Source: Sphingosinicella sp. (GTDB lineage: Bacteria; Pseudomonadota; Alphaproteobacteria; Sphingomonadales; Sphingomonadaceae). From it: a stretch of 41,258 bases of DNA. Shown here one piece after another: positions 35,396-39,189 of this stretch; within the stretch, counting starts at the first letter, position 1, and the number at the start of each line of letters is the position of its first letter. Below the pieces are notes generated by a model. That model saw only the letters and a program-made list of their open reading frames with translations, ran no database searches and was not told the DNA's origin. The DNA is taken from positions 1 through 41,258 of the forward strand of contig JACDEE010000022.1 of the NCBI GenBank assembly GCA_013816585.1. Reading direction: 5' to 3'. Position numbers and translations under genes: made by a program.

Positions 35396-35450
35396 TTGTG
35401 CCAGGCATTTCGCTCAAGGGTCGTGCGGCCCGCTAAGGGTGGAAGGCGGC
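35396..35450. repeat. Dispersed degenerate repeat, copy 2
   Basis: TTGTGCCAGGCATTTCGCTC, then AAGGGTCGTGCGG and CCGCTAAGGGTGGAAGGCGG repeat the arrangement of 33873-33928 with about three quarters identity by eye. The two copies bracket the YafY/RidA pair as direct repeats about 1.5 kb apart. Confidence 0.6.
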
Positions 35451-35715
35451 CCGAATTCCGGTCTGATCTTCCGCCCCCGATCGTCGCCAAGCCGAGGATA
35501 GCGATGCCAATATAAGAGATTGCGGCTGCCGCTGCGCTGAGGCCGACGCTGGAATAAGTAGCCGCTTTTACGGCTGTAGTCCGCAACATTATGATGCAGT
35601 GCCTCGAACAACGTGCGCAGAGTGTCAGGAAGTGGATCCTTGGCCAGGCGCTCAAGCAAGGCCTCGGCAAGAAGTCCCGCAATCCGTCAAAGCCTGCAAA
35701 CGGTCGGGGGGACAT
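35414..35715 (-). pseudogene. Third cistron of the small operon, frameshifted
   Basis: ATG at 35715 overlaps the preceding stop (TGATG). The annotated frame goes MSPRPFAGFDGLRDF and then runs on antisense to RidA, which is not credible. Shifting at the CCCCCC run gives MSPDRLQALTD, and a second shift gives RIAGLLAEALLERLAKDPLP, DTLRTLFEALHHNVADYSRK, a coherent amphipathic helical protein that stops at 35414. It therefore looks like a real gene broken by two indels. No family is recognised. Confidence 0.45.
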
Positions 35716-35897
35716 CAAGGCTCCTGCATTCTGAAAGTGGCGATCAGCCGGTCGAATTCGGGATAATCTCTGCGCGCCAATGAGGATGCGGCCCGGCTCC
35801 ACAGGGCGTCTTTATCCCGCACGGATTGCAGGCCGGCATTGATAAGGTCCGAGGGGAGAAGGGATTTAGGAACGGAAGTGATCTTTTGCTGGATCAT
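35715..35897 (-). CDS. Unknown small protein, 60 aa
   Basis: ATG at 35897 follows the stop of the upstream gene by five bases. It encodes MIQQKITSVPKSLLPSDLIN, AGLQSVRDKDALWSRAASSL and ARRDYPEFDRLIATFRMQEP. It is helical, without signal peptide. It is the middle gene of the minus-strand unit that starts at the operator-bearing promoter near 36290. Function unknown. Confidence 0.6.
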   Translation of the reverse strand: MIQQKITSVPKSLLPSDLINAGLQSVRDKDALWSRAASSLARRDYPEFDRLIATFRMQEP

Positions 35898-35902
35898 CCG
35901 CG

Positions 35903-36247
35903 CTACCCTGGTTCCCGCAGCTTTGCCCGACCCGTGTGGGTGGACATGATTGCCTGCGCAAAGCCGAACAGGTCGGCGTCTGGAAGCATGTCTTCGCCCA
36001 GGCGGATCAGCTCGGCTTCCGACGAATCGCGGGCGCGTTCGGCGGCGGAGAGCGGGTCGATGTTGGTAAGATAACCGCAATCGTCAACCAAAACGCCGCG
36101 CAGGGTCTCATTTGAAATGTGTCGCTGCACAGCTTCATTCAATTGCTGGCCCGCGCTGCGCTGATCCTGTGCCGCTTCTGCTTCGCGGGTGAGGCGGCGA
36201 AGTGTTTCCGAAATGTGGGGAGAATATGCGTTCACTTGGGGGGACAC
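35903..36247 (-). CDS. Unknown protein, first gene of operator-controlled unit, about 114 aa
   Basis: The open frame extends to a TTG at 36298, but that TTG is the -35 box of the promoter described at 36270-36298. The real start is therefore probably GTG 36247 or GTG 36235, which would make a near-leaderless message. It reads NAYSPHISETLRRLTREAEA, AQDQRSAGQQLNEAVQRHIS, NETLRGVLVDDCGYLTNIDP and ELIRLGEDMLPDADLFGFAQ. It is cytoplasmic, with no recognised domain. The next gene follows five bases later. Confidence 0.6.
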   Translation of the reverse strand: MSPQVNAYSPHISETLRRLTREAEAAQDQRSAGQQLNEAVQRHISNETLRGVLVDDCGYLTNIDPLSAAERARDSSEAELIRLGEDMLPDADLFGFAQAIMSTHTGRAKLREPG

Positions 36248-36269
36248 CGTCGTCTGAATGTAGCTGGTA

Positions 36270-36298
36270 CCTATGCGACGGATTTGTCCGTCAGTCAA
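36270..36298 (-). promoter_or_regulatory. Minus-strand promoter with operator in its spacer
   Basis: On the minus strand TTGACT (36298-36293) is followed after 17 bases by CATAGG (36275-36270). The spacer is almost entirely the palindrome GACGGACAAATCCGTC. The layout copies the plus-strand promoter at 36993-37021. It would drive the small genes 36247-35414 and be shut by the XRE repressor. Confidence 0.6.
36277..36292. promoter_or_regulatory. Operator O4 of XRE repressor
   Basis: GACGGATTTGTCCGTC, a near-perfect palindrome of the CGGAT..TCCG type. It lies in the spacer of the minus-strand promoter. Its start is exactly 30 bases from the next copy at 36307. Confidence 0.7.
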
Positions 36299-36306
36299 GG
36301 GTTATT

Positions 36307-36322
36307 TACGGATTTATCCGTC
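36307..36322. promoter_or_regulatory. Operator O5 of XRE repressor
   Basis: TACGGATTTATCCGTC, the same palindrome type, 30 bases (about three helical turns) from O4 and upstream of the minus-strand promoter. It would allow cooperative binding on one face of DNA. Confidence 0.7.
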
Positions 36323-36357
36323 GTAAGCTAGAATGCGCTTTCCTACAGCTCGGGAGC

Positions 36358-36696
36358 ATGAGACAGGCATGTTCCGATTTTGTTCTCCAGGAGCCGCCGG
36401 TGGATCAGCCAATTTATCTGAGCGAGCCGGGCTGTGCCGGGGGATGCGAACCCTGTCTGCGCGATTGCGCGGTGCTGAAGATTCACCTCAACCTTTGGGA
36501 GAAACGGGAGCTCCGCCTGCTTCGCGCCTGTCATGCCCAGCCGGTCGTATGTGAGAAGCTTCTTCGTCAGTTTTCGGAAGCTCAAGAAGCGCTGCAACGG
36601 CTTCGGCAAGAAATTCGGCTTGTTCAGCGACACTTGCCCGCTTCGGCATATGCGGCAGCGACAGGCCAAGCGCCTCGCGCAGCCTCGCTTCACTGA
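36358..36696 (+). CDS. Doubtful ORF antisense to repressor 3' end
   Basis: A plus-strand frame reads MRQACSDFVLQEPPVDQPIY, CAGGCEPCLRDCAVLKIHLN and LRQFSEAQEALQRLRQEIRL. The first half has a Cys cluster and lies where no other gene is seen (36330-36487). The second half is antisense to the XRE gene. The ribosome site is poor. It could be a small gene divergent from the operator cluster, or a shadow. Confidence 0.25.
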   Translation: MRQACSDFVLQEPPVDQPIYLSEPGCAGGCEPCLRDCAVLKIHLNLWEKRELRLLRACHAQPVVCEKLLRQFSEAQEALQRLRQEIRLVQRHLPASAYAAATGQAPRAASLH

Positions 36697-36934
36697 CGGT
36701 CATGTTGCGGGACAGGCCGAAGATCGACATATCCTGGCCCATCTCCCGGGCCAAAGCGGCCAGAAGACCGACCGACGGGTTGCGGTTACGGCGTTGGATG
36801 ATGTCGTAAACCGCGGATCGGTCGGTATCGTTGGTCGCGGCCTTGGAGAGGCCGCGCTGGCTTAATCCGCCCGTGCTGGTCGCTTTCGCCAACACGCTGA
36901 TCACCAGGTCGAGATCTATCTGATCGGTAGCCAT
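36488..36934 (-). CDS. XRE-family repressor (phage CI-like), 148 aa
   Basis: The helix-turn-helix reads VISVLAKATSTGGLSQRGLS, KAATNDTDRSAVYDIIQRRN and RNPSVGLLAALAREMGQDMS, a Cro/CI-type domain. There is no LexA-like S24 peptidase domain, so SOS self-cleavage is unlikely. The C-terminal tail (AEQAEFLAEAVAALLELPKT) is helical and may dimerise. ATG 36934 has AAGG upstream and is preferred to 36949. Three palindromes lie directly in front (36950-37015), between this gene and the divergent replication-like gene, the layout of a lysogeny switch. Confidence 0.85.
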   Translation of the reverse strand: MATDQIDLDLVISVLAKATSTGGLSQRGLSKAATNDTDRSAVYDIIQRRNRNPSVGLLAALAREMGQDMSIFGLSRNMTVSEARLREALGLSLPHMPKRASVAEQAEFLAEAVAALLELPKTDEEASHIRPAGHDRREAGGAPVSPKG

Positions 36935-36949
36935 CCGTACCTTATGCAT

Positions 36950-36965
36950 GACGGATTAATCCGGA
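36950..36965. promoter_or_regulatory. Operator O1 of XRE repressor
   Basis: GACGGATTAATCCGGA contains the perfect palindrome CGGATTAATCCG. It starts 16 bases upstream of the repressor's ATG, the position for autoregulation. Confidence 0.75.
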
Positions 36966-36970
36966 GCAAT

Positions 36971-36986
36971 AGCGGATATGTCCGTC
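36971..36986. promoter_or_regulatory. Operator O2 of XRE repressor
   Basis: AGCGGATATGTCCGTC, same class, 21 bases (two helical turns) from O1. It lies just upstream of the -35 box of the plus-strand promoter. Confidence 0.75.
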
Positions 36987-36992
36987 AATGGG

Positions 36993-37021
36993 TTGACATG
37001 ACGGATATATCCGACACATAA
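36993..37021 (+). promoter_or_regulatory. Promoter of the replication-like gene with operator O3 in spacer
   Basis: TTGACA at 36993-36998 and ACATAA at 37016-37021 are separated by 17 bases. The spacer holds GACGGATATATCCGAC (37000-37015), the third copy of the palindrome. Repressor bound here would block RNA polymerase directly. The leader to the start at 37087 is about 60 bases. Confidence 0.75.
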
Positions 37022-37086
37022 AGTGAGATGTCTCATCTGCACCCTGAATTCGATTCCCTTGGGCTTGTTGCAGGAAGGGAAGCCGA

Positions 37087-38112
37087 GTGAGCGGCTATGT
37101 TCGGATCCACCGTGGGCTGATCGGTCATCCAGCCTTTCGCAACGATGCCGAAGCCATGGCCTTTGCCTGGCTGATAATGCGCGCGGCGTGGAGGCCGTCC
37201 CGGGTCCGCTACAAGGATCGGATCCTAGATATTGCACGAGGACAGCTCGCCATTTCACAGCGCGACATGGCCAGGGCGCTGGATCGCGACAAGACCTGGG
37301 TCGAACGGCTGTGGAAACGGTTGAAGTCGGAGGCGATGATCGACGCCGCGACCGGGGCGGGCGTCGCCGTAATTACCATCTGCAATTATGACAATTTTCA
37401 GCAATCCGATCGAACGCGCGAGGCGCCGGGCACGGCGGTCGTCGAGGCGGGGACCGAGGCGATTGGTCAGGCAGGTGCGGAGGCGGGCACAAGGCGAGGC
37501 CAAGGCACAGAACAAATAAGGGAAGAATCCAAGAAAGAAGATTCCCCCCAACCCCCCAGGGCAAGAGCTATCGAGAAAAGTGTCTTGCCTGATGATTGGG
37601 CTTTGCCCGCAGTCGCCGATCTCCCGCCCAGGGTGCGCGCCTGCGCCGAGCAATGGACCGTCGCCAGCTACGCGACACGCGGCGAGGAATTCGTGAGCTT
37701 TTGGCGCTCGCGCGGGCGAATGATGAAGGATTGGCGGCTCACCTGGGCCGGACGCGTGGTCGACCTGCACGGGCAGGTGATGCGCGACCAGAAATTCGGG
37801 AACGCGCCGACCGGGGACGCGCAGTCGATGCCCGATGCGGACAGATTGGCAAGCTACGACAAGGGCGCCGCCCTGATGGACCGGCTTAACCGGCCTGAGG
37901 ATGCGGCGGCGTTCAGGGACCAGGCGGTGCGCCTTCGGGGCAGCGGCGCAAAGCCGGTCGGGTCCTGCCTCCCGCCGAAGCTCCGAACCACCAGATCCAG
38001 TCGAAAATGTGAGGAGCCAGGATATGGGCAAGGCAATGCGAGGACGACCGAAAAAAGCGGGCAAGCGAACCAAAACCGGCCGGCTGATCCCGGTGCGGGA
38101 TTATGGCAATGA
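37087..38112 (+). CDS. Phage-type replication-initiator-like protein, 341 aa (end probably frameshifted)
   Basis: The N-terminal ~105 residues form a winged helix typical of phage replisome organiser/O-like proteins: MSGYVRIHRGLIGHPAFRND, EAMAFAWLIMRAAWRPSRVR, LAISQRDMARALDRDKTWVE and VAVITICNYDNFQ. A charged low-complexity linker follows and then a block around WRSRGRMMKDWRLTWAGRVV. The last 50 residues overlap the next gene and look random. One extra G at the GGGG run 37937-37940 would give LRGQRRKAGRVLPPAEAP and a stop at 38012, just before the next ribosome site. Start GTG 37087 follows AAGGGAAG. Confidence 0.78.
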   Translation: MSGYVRIHRGLIGHPAFRNDAEAMAFAWLIMRAAWRPSRVRYKDRILDIARGQLAISQRDMARALDRDKTWVERLWKRLKSEAMIDAATGAGVAVITICNYDNFQQSDRTREAPGTAVVEAGTEAIGQAGAEAGTRRGQGTEQIREESKKEDSPQPPRARAIEKSVLPDDWALPAVADLPPRVRACAEQWTVASYATRGEEFVSFWRSRGRMMKDWRLTWAGRVVDLHGQVMRDQKFGNAPTGDAQSMPDADRLASYDKGAALMDRLNRPEDAAAFRDQAVRLRGSGAKPVGSCLPPKLRTTRSSRKCEEPGYGQGNARTTEKSGQANQNRPADPGAGLWQ

Positions 38113-38629
38113 CCATGTGCAGGCGCTGCGCGAGCGATTCTCGGTATTCCAGGGCGGAAAGGCGGGAAACGAGCTTGGTTGCTGCATCGGCAAAGCCTGG
38201 GCGGCGGGGTTGCTGGAAGGGCATGGCGCAGATGCCCAGGCACTGCGCGACGCGGGCCGGGATTATGCGCGGTTATGGTACGAATATTATGGCCTCAGCC
38301 AGGTCCGCACCAGCCGCTTCGAACGGCATTCGAAGGGCTTCGCCTCCGCCGCGGTTACACCCGATCAGCGCCGGTTTCTCAAGTTGGATGGGATCGTAAG
38401 CGCGCGGCCGTCGGCGCACAGGGACGCCTTTTACGCGCTCTGCGTCGATTATTTCGACAGCGACGCGCTGCCGCCCTTCGTCGATCGGCTGATCAACGAG
38501 CGGCTGATGCTGAAGGGGCTGAAAGTCCCCGGATGCCTTCCGATCAAGGGAGATGCGGAAAGGCTGGAAAAAGCAGCCGTGACATTGCTGGCGATCGTGG
38601 AAGGGGATCGCGTGCGGAAGGCCGCGTGA
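38024..38629 (+). CDS. Phage-type protein of unknown function, 201 aa
   Basis: GAGGAG stands before the ATG at 38024. It opens with a basic stretch (MGKAMRGRPKKAGKRTKTGR). Then come ALRERFSVFQGGKAGNELGC, DYARLWYEYYGLSQVRTSRF and SARPSAHRDAFYALCVDYFD. It is soluble and DNA-binding-like at its N-terminus. I have seen similar proteins next to replication or packaging genes in sphingomonad prophages, without a known role. It belongs to the transcript of the replication-like gene. Confidence 0.72.
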   Translation: MGKAMRGRPKKAGKRTKTGRLIPVRDYGNDHVQALRERFSVFQGGKAGNELGCCIGKAWAAGLLEGHGADAQALRDAGRDYARLWYEYYGLSQVRTSRFERHSKGFASAAVTPDQRRFLKLDGIVSARPSAHRDAFYALCVDYFDSDALPPFVDRLINERLMLKGLKVPGCLPIKGDAERLEKAAVTLLAIVEGDRVRKAA

Positions 38630-38632
38630 CAG

Positions 38633-38830
38633 CTATTTCGGGCGCCCGGTATAGCCTGCGGCTTTGCGCAGTTCGTCTGCGACCATCGGATAGTCGTTGC
38701 TGATCGGGTGACGAAGGCTAAATGCACTGACGTCGTTGACGGATCACTACGCGTCAGCGCCGTCGGTGATCGGAATGCCCTCAGCATGAAGCCGCCGTTC
38801 GAGATGGGCACAAAAAGAAGGGTGGCTATT
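38633..38830 (-). pseudogene. Degraded small gene with two in-frame stops
   Basis: One minus frame reads NSHPSFFCAHLERRLHAEGI, PITDGADA, then TAG TGA (38744-38749), then SVNDVSAFSLRHPISNDYPM and VADELRKAAGYTGRPK to the stop at 38633. Both halves are coding-like and in the same frame, so this is probably one gene killed by nonsense changes or a small deletion. No start is visible and no family is recognised. Confidence 0.4.
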
Positions 38831-39002
38831 TCCGATTAGCGGGCAGCCATTTGCCCTTGGTGCGGCTGGTCACATGAAATTGCCGGCAGCGATCGCATCG
38901 ATAGGGCCGAAGTGGTAGAGACGCGCTGATGGCAGCCGCCATCGCTGCAGCTTCGGAAGGGTAACGCACCTTTTTGGCGCAGACGCTCAATCTGGTGCGC
39001 AT
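38826..39002 (-). CDS. Small zinc-ribbon-like protein, 58 aa
   Basis: It reads MRTRLSVCAKKVRYPSEAAA, MAAAISASLPLRPYRCDRCR and QFHVTSRTKGKWLPANRK. The C-x2-C with a following H matches the small alphaproteobacterial proteins ending Y-R-C-x-x-C-x-x-(W/F)-H-x-T-S. An early Cys may be a further ligand. The ATG at 39002 is chosen over TTG 39026. Such proteins are common on phages and islands. Unknown role. Confidence 0.7.
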   Translation of the reverse strand: MRTRLSVCAKKVRYPSEAAAMAAAISASLPLRPYRCDRCRQFHVTSRTKGKWLPANRK

Positions 39003-39189
39003 ATGTGCCTTTCGTCCGACCCGCAAACTCGCCTGTATGGTGCGCTAATTGTCCGCAGCTTTTACCGCAATCGGAGTTCGTTTCCGGATCGCGTCCTAAA
39101 ACCGGTTTTGGGATATTTTAAAGCTTTATTGGCTCTGAATCGGTTCCACTTCGTTGAACCGTAAAGACTCCCTGTTTTGGAGATATCGA

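Follow-up and report, generated by a model that had tools for sequence, protein, structure and literature searches.

In the temperate phages lambda and P22 the repressor gene lies between the left and the right operator regions and is transcribed from right to left, and a replication gene is expressed from the right promoter. We analysed a locus of related layout in Sphingosinicella sp. (assembly GCA_013816585.1, contig JACDEE010000022.1, here C6); the window is this whole contig of 41,258 bp, one of the 62 that make up a draft genome of 2.82 Mb. The locus is like that of lambda and P22 in having a repressor gene between two operator regions of shared sequence and a replication gene that would be read from the right promoter, and it differs in that it has no S24-type repressor, leaves no room for a cro gene and carries an extra gene, here called p98, antisense to the repressor gene. 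It is probably a phage-type switch in which a short non-cleavable repressor would be lifted by the p98 product, a candidate antirepressor induced in the SOS response.

Several described systems come close to such an arrangement. In the Salmonella Gifsy prophages small antirepressors controlled by LexA have been proven to bind short repressors in uncleaved form and to detach them from DNA (PMC3121763), and p98 is read as an antirepressor by analogy with these, since a non-cleavable repressor and a small gene apparently under LexA control are found together here as well. The likeness to the Gifsy systems (GfoA, GfhA; PMC3121763) lies in the short repressor without a cleavage domain, in the small LexA-controlled gene, judged here from its sequence, and in the lambdoid-like layout. 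In Gifsy, however, the antirepressor gene is located outside the immunity region, whereas p98 lies between the two operator clusters; p98 also overlaps the repressor gene in antisense with a fixed phase and encodes a four-cysteine motif, and its action is proposed by analogy. Linear plasmid-like phages carry TF-smORF modules, in which the repressor is inactivated by a small protein without autoproteolysis, but these modules are SOS-independent and driven by phage transcription factors, whereas p98 has a LexA box (PMC10432266); the words "overlap" and "antisense" do not occur in the main text of that paper. Hex of phage 434 is the product of a second open reading frame (ORF) that partly overlaps the repressor gene and affects induction, but it shares one mRNA with the repressor and acts by preventing cleavage, whereas p98 is on the opposite strand (PMC3564112). 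Among the papers listed in searches of open-access full text (PMC), a scope outside which most subscription journals lie, none was recognised as describing the p98-repressor pair. Judged by its sequence context, p98 is set apart from the Gifsy antirepressors by its place inside the immunity region and by its interlocking with the repressor gene.

The repressor gene (36488-36934, minus strand) was identified from the ORF list and family scans as a short XRE-type gene of 148 amino acids (153 from the ATG at 36949). It has no S24 domain, in agreement with the original prediction of a switch without a cleavable repressor, and should therefore not be induced by RecA-stimulated self-cleavage. The same holds for its partners in the family described below: none of 30 repressors of p98 loci matched Peptidase_S24 at E values up to 0.01, and helix-turn-helix (HTH) families matched up to 15 of the 30 each. 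The gene is transcribed from the right operator cluster toward the left one, and the 152 bp between its ATG at 36934 and the GTG of the next gene at 37087 hold no cro-sized ORF. A single-sequence search of 98 genomes returned only the repressor itself, and no relatives were found in viral contigs, phages, plasmids or genome contigs, where the contig scans seek near-exact peptides first; relatives surfaced only through p98.

The operators flank this gene. Five palindromes of the form CGGAT-N2-TCCG had been proposed, and 14-mers do begin at 36277, 36307, 36950, 36971 and 37000, with 12-mer cores at 36279, 36309, 36952, 36973 and 37002. The spacing was wrong, the true unit being CGGAT-N3-TCCG (CGGATWWRTCCG) within a 16-bp palindrome close to GACGGATWWRTCCGTC. 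With N2 and up to two mismatches, 221 sites were found against 221.6 expected, which is the chance level, and the pattern was therefore dropped for the N3 version. Motif scans place the strandless operators 1 (GACGGATTTGTCCGTC, 36277-36292) and 2 (TACGGATTTATCCGTC, 36307-36322), spaced 30 bp, past the 3' end of the repressor gene, and operators 3 (GACGGATTAATCCGGA, 36950-36965), 4 (AGCGGATATGTCCGTC, 36971-36986) and 5 (GACGGATATATCCGAC, 37000-37015), spaced 21 and 29 bp, ahead of its start; the repressor gene thus lies between two clusters, as had been proposed, with two operators to the left and three to the right. CGGAT-N3-TCCG occurs in the contig at these five places only, and none of 2000 mononucleotide shuffles of 36200-37120 contained two or more copies. 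In a leave-one-out scan the five operators scored 14.2 to 23.7 bits, and no other contig position reached any of them. Genome-wide, CGGATWWRTCCG is found at 8 places, five of them at this locus, and the remaining three copies are without outer arms on either side; the palindromes are not equally common elsewhere. These data confirm that the five operators are real and not due to chance.

The gene p98 (36400-36696, plus strand; 98 amino acids), which bears on the trigger of induction, had been overlooked in the original prediction. Its start was set at the GTG at 36400 by the Shine-Dalgarno-like CCAGGAG and by alignment, an in-frame ATG at 36358 also being possible. It was first noticed through a match to its N-terminal motif in loci L031 and L032 (61% over 23 residues, E 7e-6). 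A two-sequence profile, at E values up to 0.01, then matched 12 places in 11 of the 396 genomes of the order; at nine of these (the window, L082-L088 and L092, in 8 genomes) a repressor ORF overlaps p98 tail-to-tail. The other matches were dropped by eye before the counts, L089 and L090 for a stop inside the match and L091 for an incomplete cysteine motif, all three being without a repressor partner; L082 was kept despite one flagged stop, as its frame contains the motif and ends in MH, and weak matches in L036 and L099 were left out. A ten-sequence profile found only the window's own genome among 385 genomes across the class. Scans of viral contigs gave 2 and 31 p98 loci, the scan with the two-sequence profile giving none. 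No match to the p98 of the window or of L105 was found among phage records, nor to that of L105 among plasmid records. Scores of the window against hidden Markov models (HMMs) of the A8 and A9 sets are circular, the window being in both, and are not used as evidence.

Some observations on single members of this family may be added. L031 and L032 are identical copies of one prophage in genome G124: a stretch of 11.4 kb is the same in the chromosome (L031:6576-18001) and in a separate 38-kb contig of that genome (L032:6575-18000), which perhaps represents an episomal or virion form. At L099:3888-4131 a second, partial p98-like frame, preceded by TTTCCTAC, lies about 5 kb from the main copy. At L036:12637-13370 two weakly matching frames, one p98-like (E 0.0016) and one repressor-like (E 0.00025), are arranged head-to-head and not tail-to-tail.

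The four cysteines of the p98 protein, CX3CX2CX3C, are invariant in the 30 p98 sequences of A8 and are followed by two long predicted helices, which suggests a cysteine head on a helical hairpin; the predicted model has a mean predicted local distance difference test (pLDDT) score of 70.6, with the cysteine head below 50. Within Pfam, NCBIfam and PHROG no family matched more than 4 of 30 p98 proteins, and these family libraries are also the only basis on which homology to GfoA or GtgA was compared, no direct comparison having been made. The p98 profile matched PDB sequences of designed helical proteins along some 30 residues (best E 2e-4), which was put down to composition, and among viral structures no match was better than E 6. 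Since the libraries used hold no known antirepressor like p98, it might be asked whether p98 serves some other early function in the phage, for instance as a metal-binding host-takeover protein, and is merely placed beside the repressor gene, with induction taking another path. We consider this improbable, as the LexA box and the fixed partnership with short repressors, both described below, suit an inducer better than a gene of other function. S24-type repressors were seen in L024 and L026 (by Pfam) and S24-like ones, by eye, in L033 and L079, and none of these four loci has a p98 match.

The two genes overlap throughout the collected loci. In the window, 209 of the 297 bp of p98 (36488-36696, both strands) are antisense to the 3' end of the repressor gene, and all 10 genomic and all 33 viral loci have an ORF of repressor type facing the tail of p98. 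Three viral loci (L101-L103) appear to repeat the prophages of L082, L092 and L086, and 40 loci were used in later counts; some viral contigs being close relatives, these are not 40 independent cases. Among them L133 is divergent, and L121 is divergent in the repressor head. The overlap measures 140 to 248 bp and has a single antisense phase in 40/40 loci, p98 position 2 facing repressor codon position 3. The chance of an open p98 frame given the repressor protein averages 0.21 per locus (0.01 to 0.43), and the frame is open in all 40, but these loci were collected through p98. Loci with unrelated repressor heads are about 70-90% identical in the overlap, and within about 50 nt past the p98 stop their identity drops to 13-33%, which indicates that the DNA-binding head has been exchanged at the edge of the interlocked block.

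Pooled tests for dual coding were strongly positive (Fisher p 1e-8 and 4e-11 over 12 disjoint pairs, with a bootstrap pointing the same way) and suggested strong simultaneous coding on both strands, an interpretation that was replaced by one of divided constraint once the overlap was split. In 45 codons of the conserved repressor domain, rates at repressor positions 1, 2 and 3 are 0.07, 0.05 and 0.235; its own frame is constrained there, with no clear constraint on p98. In the other 274 overlap codons the rates are 0.161, 0.285 and 0.153, repressor position 2 being p98 position 3, and the p98 frame is constrained over the p98 core, opposite the variable tail of the repressor. The pooled tests are thus to be read as constraint shared out between the strands.

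This pattern bears on a second alternative, in which p98 is SOS-controlled without encoding an antirepressor: the repressor would be lowered by antisense transcription through its gene, and the p98 protein would have an early lytic or host-directed role. The overlap is antisense to the repressor 3' end in all 40 loci, and the promoter match facing p98 points into the repressor gene, as such a mechanism would have it. However, p98 is conserved as a protein, with the invariant cysteine motif of A8 outside the overlap and with constraint in its own frame over the core, and antisense transcription alone would not need a conserved p98 protein, which counts against a mechanism of transcription only. 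We regard this alternative as rather unlikely.

A scan for GTTC-N7-GTTC revealed a LexA (SOS) box of the alphaproteobacterial type, GTTCCGATTTTGTTC (36371-36385, plus strand), 14 bp ahead of the p98 start, the sole occurrence of this pattern in the contig. GTTC-N7-GTTC is the Caulobacter SOS box in Table 1 of a review (PMC9578287). In 38 of the 40 loci the pattern or its reverse complement lies within the 120 nt ahead of the first p98 cysteine codon, L119 having a box with one mismatch and L133 none; other GTTC spacers of 3 to 12 occur in 0 to 3 of the 40 loci, and random windows in the same loci contain the box in 76 of 18,475 cases (0.4%). The host's own lexA carries GAAC-N7-GAAC, placed 3 nt upstream of its longest ORF. 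The claim that the trigger of induction is open is not supported, as a LexA box precedes the overlooked p98. A second conserved element, TTTCCTAC (36339-36346, plus strand), contains the 7-mer TTTCCTA, which is present in 34 of 40 p98 upstream regions; in shuffles no 7-mer was present in more than 7. The TTTCCTA(C) element lies 86 to 104 nt before the first cysteine codon, and in the window TTTCCTAC is located about where transcription from the promoter match facing p98 would start.

Promoter-like sequences were found around the operators, those for the leftward genes, the loader and the repressor being hexamers read by eye. On the minus strand TTGACT (36298-36293), a spacer of 17 and CATAGG (-10 match 3/6) form a leftward promoter match (36270-36298) with operator 1 in its spacer. 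On the plus strand TTGACA (36993-36998), a spacer of 18 and CATAAA (4/6) face the replication gene (36993-37022) with operator 5 in the spacer. The proposal that operators lie in the spacers of TTGACT/TTGACA promoters was borne out in this way, and its 17-base spacer holds for the minus strand; on the plus strand 18 fits better than 17. A simple promoter scan listed neither match, both -10 boxes being weak. It did list TTTACG-18-TAGAAT facing p98 (36305-36334, plus strand, 9/12), which had been overlooked and whose spacer is filled by operator 2. A weak match for the repressor gene itself, TTGCTC-17-CATAAG (36941-36969, minus strand), has operator 3 in its spacer and would start transcription near the repressor ATG at 36934. 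As the promoter matches occur in near-chance number, promoter strength alone proves little, and the match facing p98 is not significant by itself; more telling is the position of the operators within the spacers.

Taken together, these features suggest how the switch may work. The operators, their layout, the conserved LexA box, the p98 family, the constant antisense overlap and the lack of S24 can be read from the sequences, and binding by the repressor and by LexA, the action of p98 and transcriptional interference are what we infer. In the lysogen, the repressor would bind the five operators in the spacers of the promoters for the leftward genes, p98 and the rightward loader gene, and probably also the operator in the spacer of its own promoter. 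Repression of p98 would come from LexA at 36371-36385 and, in the copy of the window, from the repressor at operator 2 as well. Upon DNA damage LexA would fall and p98 would be made, and its protein, with a four-cysteine head that may hold a metal or an iron-sulfur cluster on a helical hairpin, would inactivate the repressor, whose C-terminal domain is the most likely target. Antisense transcription from p98 would also enter the repressor gene and could reinforce the switch.

Several observations weigh against this antirepressor switch. The p98 protein showed no resemblance to known antirepressors in the family, PDB-sequence or viral-structure searches, and the window repressor taken alone has a weak HTH match (HTH_3, E 0.018). 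The LexA box of the window is oriented opposite to the boxes of the other loci, and no exact SOS box was found before the host recA in the stretch examined. L080 has a short XRE ORF yet no p98 match, which means that p98 does not accompany every short repressor. The promoter scan of 35400-38900 gave 2 matches, shuffles yielding 0.9 (sd 1.0). Between the promoter match and p98 there is a hairpin resembling a terminator (36353-36375, plus strand), such hairpins being at the chance level in the region (3 found, 3.2 expected); the chance-level promoter match and the hairpin slightly reduce our confidence. Among 36 loci, a repeat common to the left and right operator regions beats all shuffles (0/40) only in the window, the next best being L113 (2/40) and L111 and L131 (3/40 each), and a palindrome test of 10 loci flagged the window and L092 (0/100) and, less so, L031 (2/100). 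With shared repeats and palindromes in so few loci, control of p98 by the repressor is not a demonstrated family trait, and as such it was set aside as unsupported by shared repeats. In the distant p98 phage L031 (15850-16560) other palindromes were noticed by eye, GTAGGAAAAATCCTAC and GTAGTTTCCTAC on the p98 side and GCTACGGTTATCGTAGC on the repressor side.

To the right of the switch lies an ORF of 341 amino acids for a DnaD-like phage helicase loader (37087-38112, plus strand), the replication gene, whose first 308 codons matched the unnamed phrog_35955 (1e-22) and phrog_2514, a DnaD-like loader (4e-16). It overlaps by 89 bp the next gene, g200 (38024-38629, plus strand), which belongs to an unnamed family and matched no Pfam or PHROG family. 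In related phages g200 stands up to about 2 kb before terminase-like ORFs: by eye, it does so before terminase/portal-like ORFs in the prophage loci L030 and L031, and the same placement is seen in five of six viral contigs (L075, L076, L078, L079 and L080), L077 ending at g200. In L079 the loader, g200 and a terminase-like ORF follow one another, and the C-terminal portion of the loader is also found in L080. The g200 model (pLDDT 80) matched by Foldseek an unnamed phage protein (E 1e-7) and a DUF6456 phage protein (E 0.03), the best PDB entry being a sigma factor chimera (E 0.31), and its sequence had no match in PDB; a role of g200 as an antiterminator or sigma-like regulator, which had been considered, gained no support from these searches. 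Besides its own genome, g200 was matched in 8 of 148 genomes, six of the same genus (37-43% identity) and two weakly. At L024-L029 g200 relatives stand by a divergent repressor-like ORF in chromosomal surroundings, and no other phage gene was noticed there; this ORF is of S24 type in L024 and L026 by Pfam, L027 reads alike, and in L025 and L029 it is a small ORF without a Pfam family. These loci possibly represent a repeatedly retained repressor-g200 pair.

To the left, behind operators 1 and 2, small ORFs of about 114, 60 and 81 amino acids (35414-36247, minus strand) have a codon-position GC content plausible for coding. They match no Pfam or PHROG family at a useful E value, in keeping with the original description of small genes without recognised function; searches of phage and plasmid records with the largest gave nothing, and no counterpart of any of the three was found in the collected loci. 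With neither a family nor relatives, a label of defence or host takeover is without evidence for these genes (PADLOC was not searched).

A lysogeny-like switch without integrase or structural genes had been described, and no integrase, terminase or structural genes were seen in 35.4-41.2 kb, part of the contig ORFs having been scanned and other contigs not searched. Genes scanned beside the element are chromosomal in type (a WYL regulator, fasciclin and RidA). The element might be a satellite, defence or host-takeover module, as the leftward small genes without recognised function stand behind the same operators; its right half, however, matches phage early regions before terminase-like ORFs in viral contigs, and this alternative, very improbable in our view, was set aside because L079 and L080 carry related early genes in that position. 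The early-gene order common to the window and to these two contigs indicates that the locus is the surviving early region, an immunity-replication segment, of a sphingomonad temperate phage and not a free-standing satellite. Of the original interpretation, the switch layout, the operators in spacers and the missing cleavage domain thus stand, and the satellite and the open trigger are not supported. With late genes not seen in the contig, expression of the replication and leftward genes, immunity, or action in trans on other prophages is the most that could be expected of the remnant. To the right of the element, a 66-amino-acid ORF (38826-39026) matches phrog_15216 (E 5e-7), and similar DNA is found at several places in genomes of the genus. 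The contig end (41130-41258) carries a repeat of about 125 bp with 10 further copies in the genome, most of them at the ends of contigs; the repeat opens a transposase-like frame, which points to an insertion sequence that breaks the assembly there.

Repressors without an autocleavage domain leave the lifting of lysogeny unexplained, and for a family of sphingomonad phages the sequences analysed here point to a trigger (LexA), to a gene (p98) and to a likely target surface of its product, the C-terminal domain of the repressor. The pair also provides a case of two antisense-overlapping genes with constraint divided by strand. Tentatively, and with somewhat less than even confidence, we propose that it forms a heritable cassette of sphingomonad phages in which an SOS-induced antirepressor and its target, the repressor C-terminal domain, are interwritten on opposite strands, heads and operators would swap at the edge to give new immunity, and one p98 might co-induce heteroimmune prophages. 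If the p98-repressor pair is indeed inseparable, the repressor head and operators could be exchanged while the same antirepressor would still induce, and a plausible reason for the locking of the two genes would be that immunity may change and inducibility stay.

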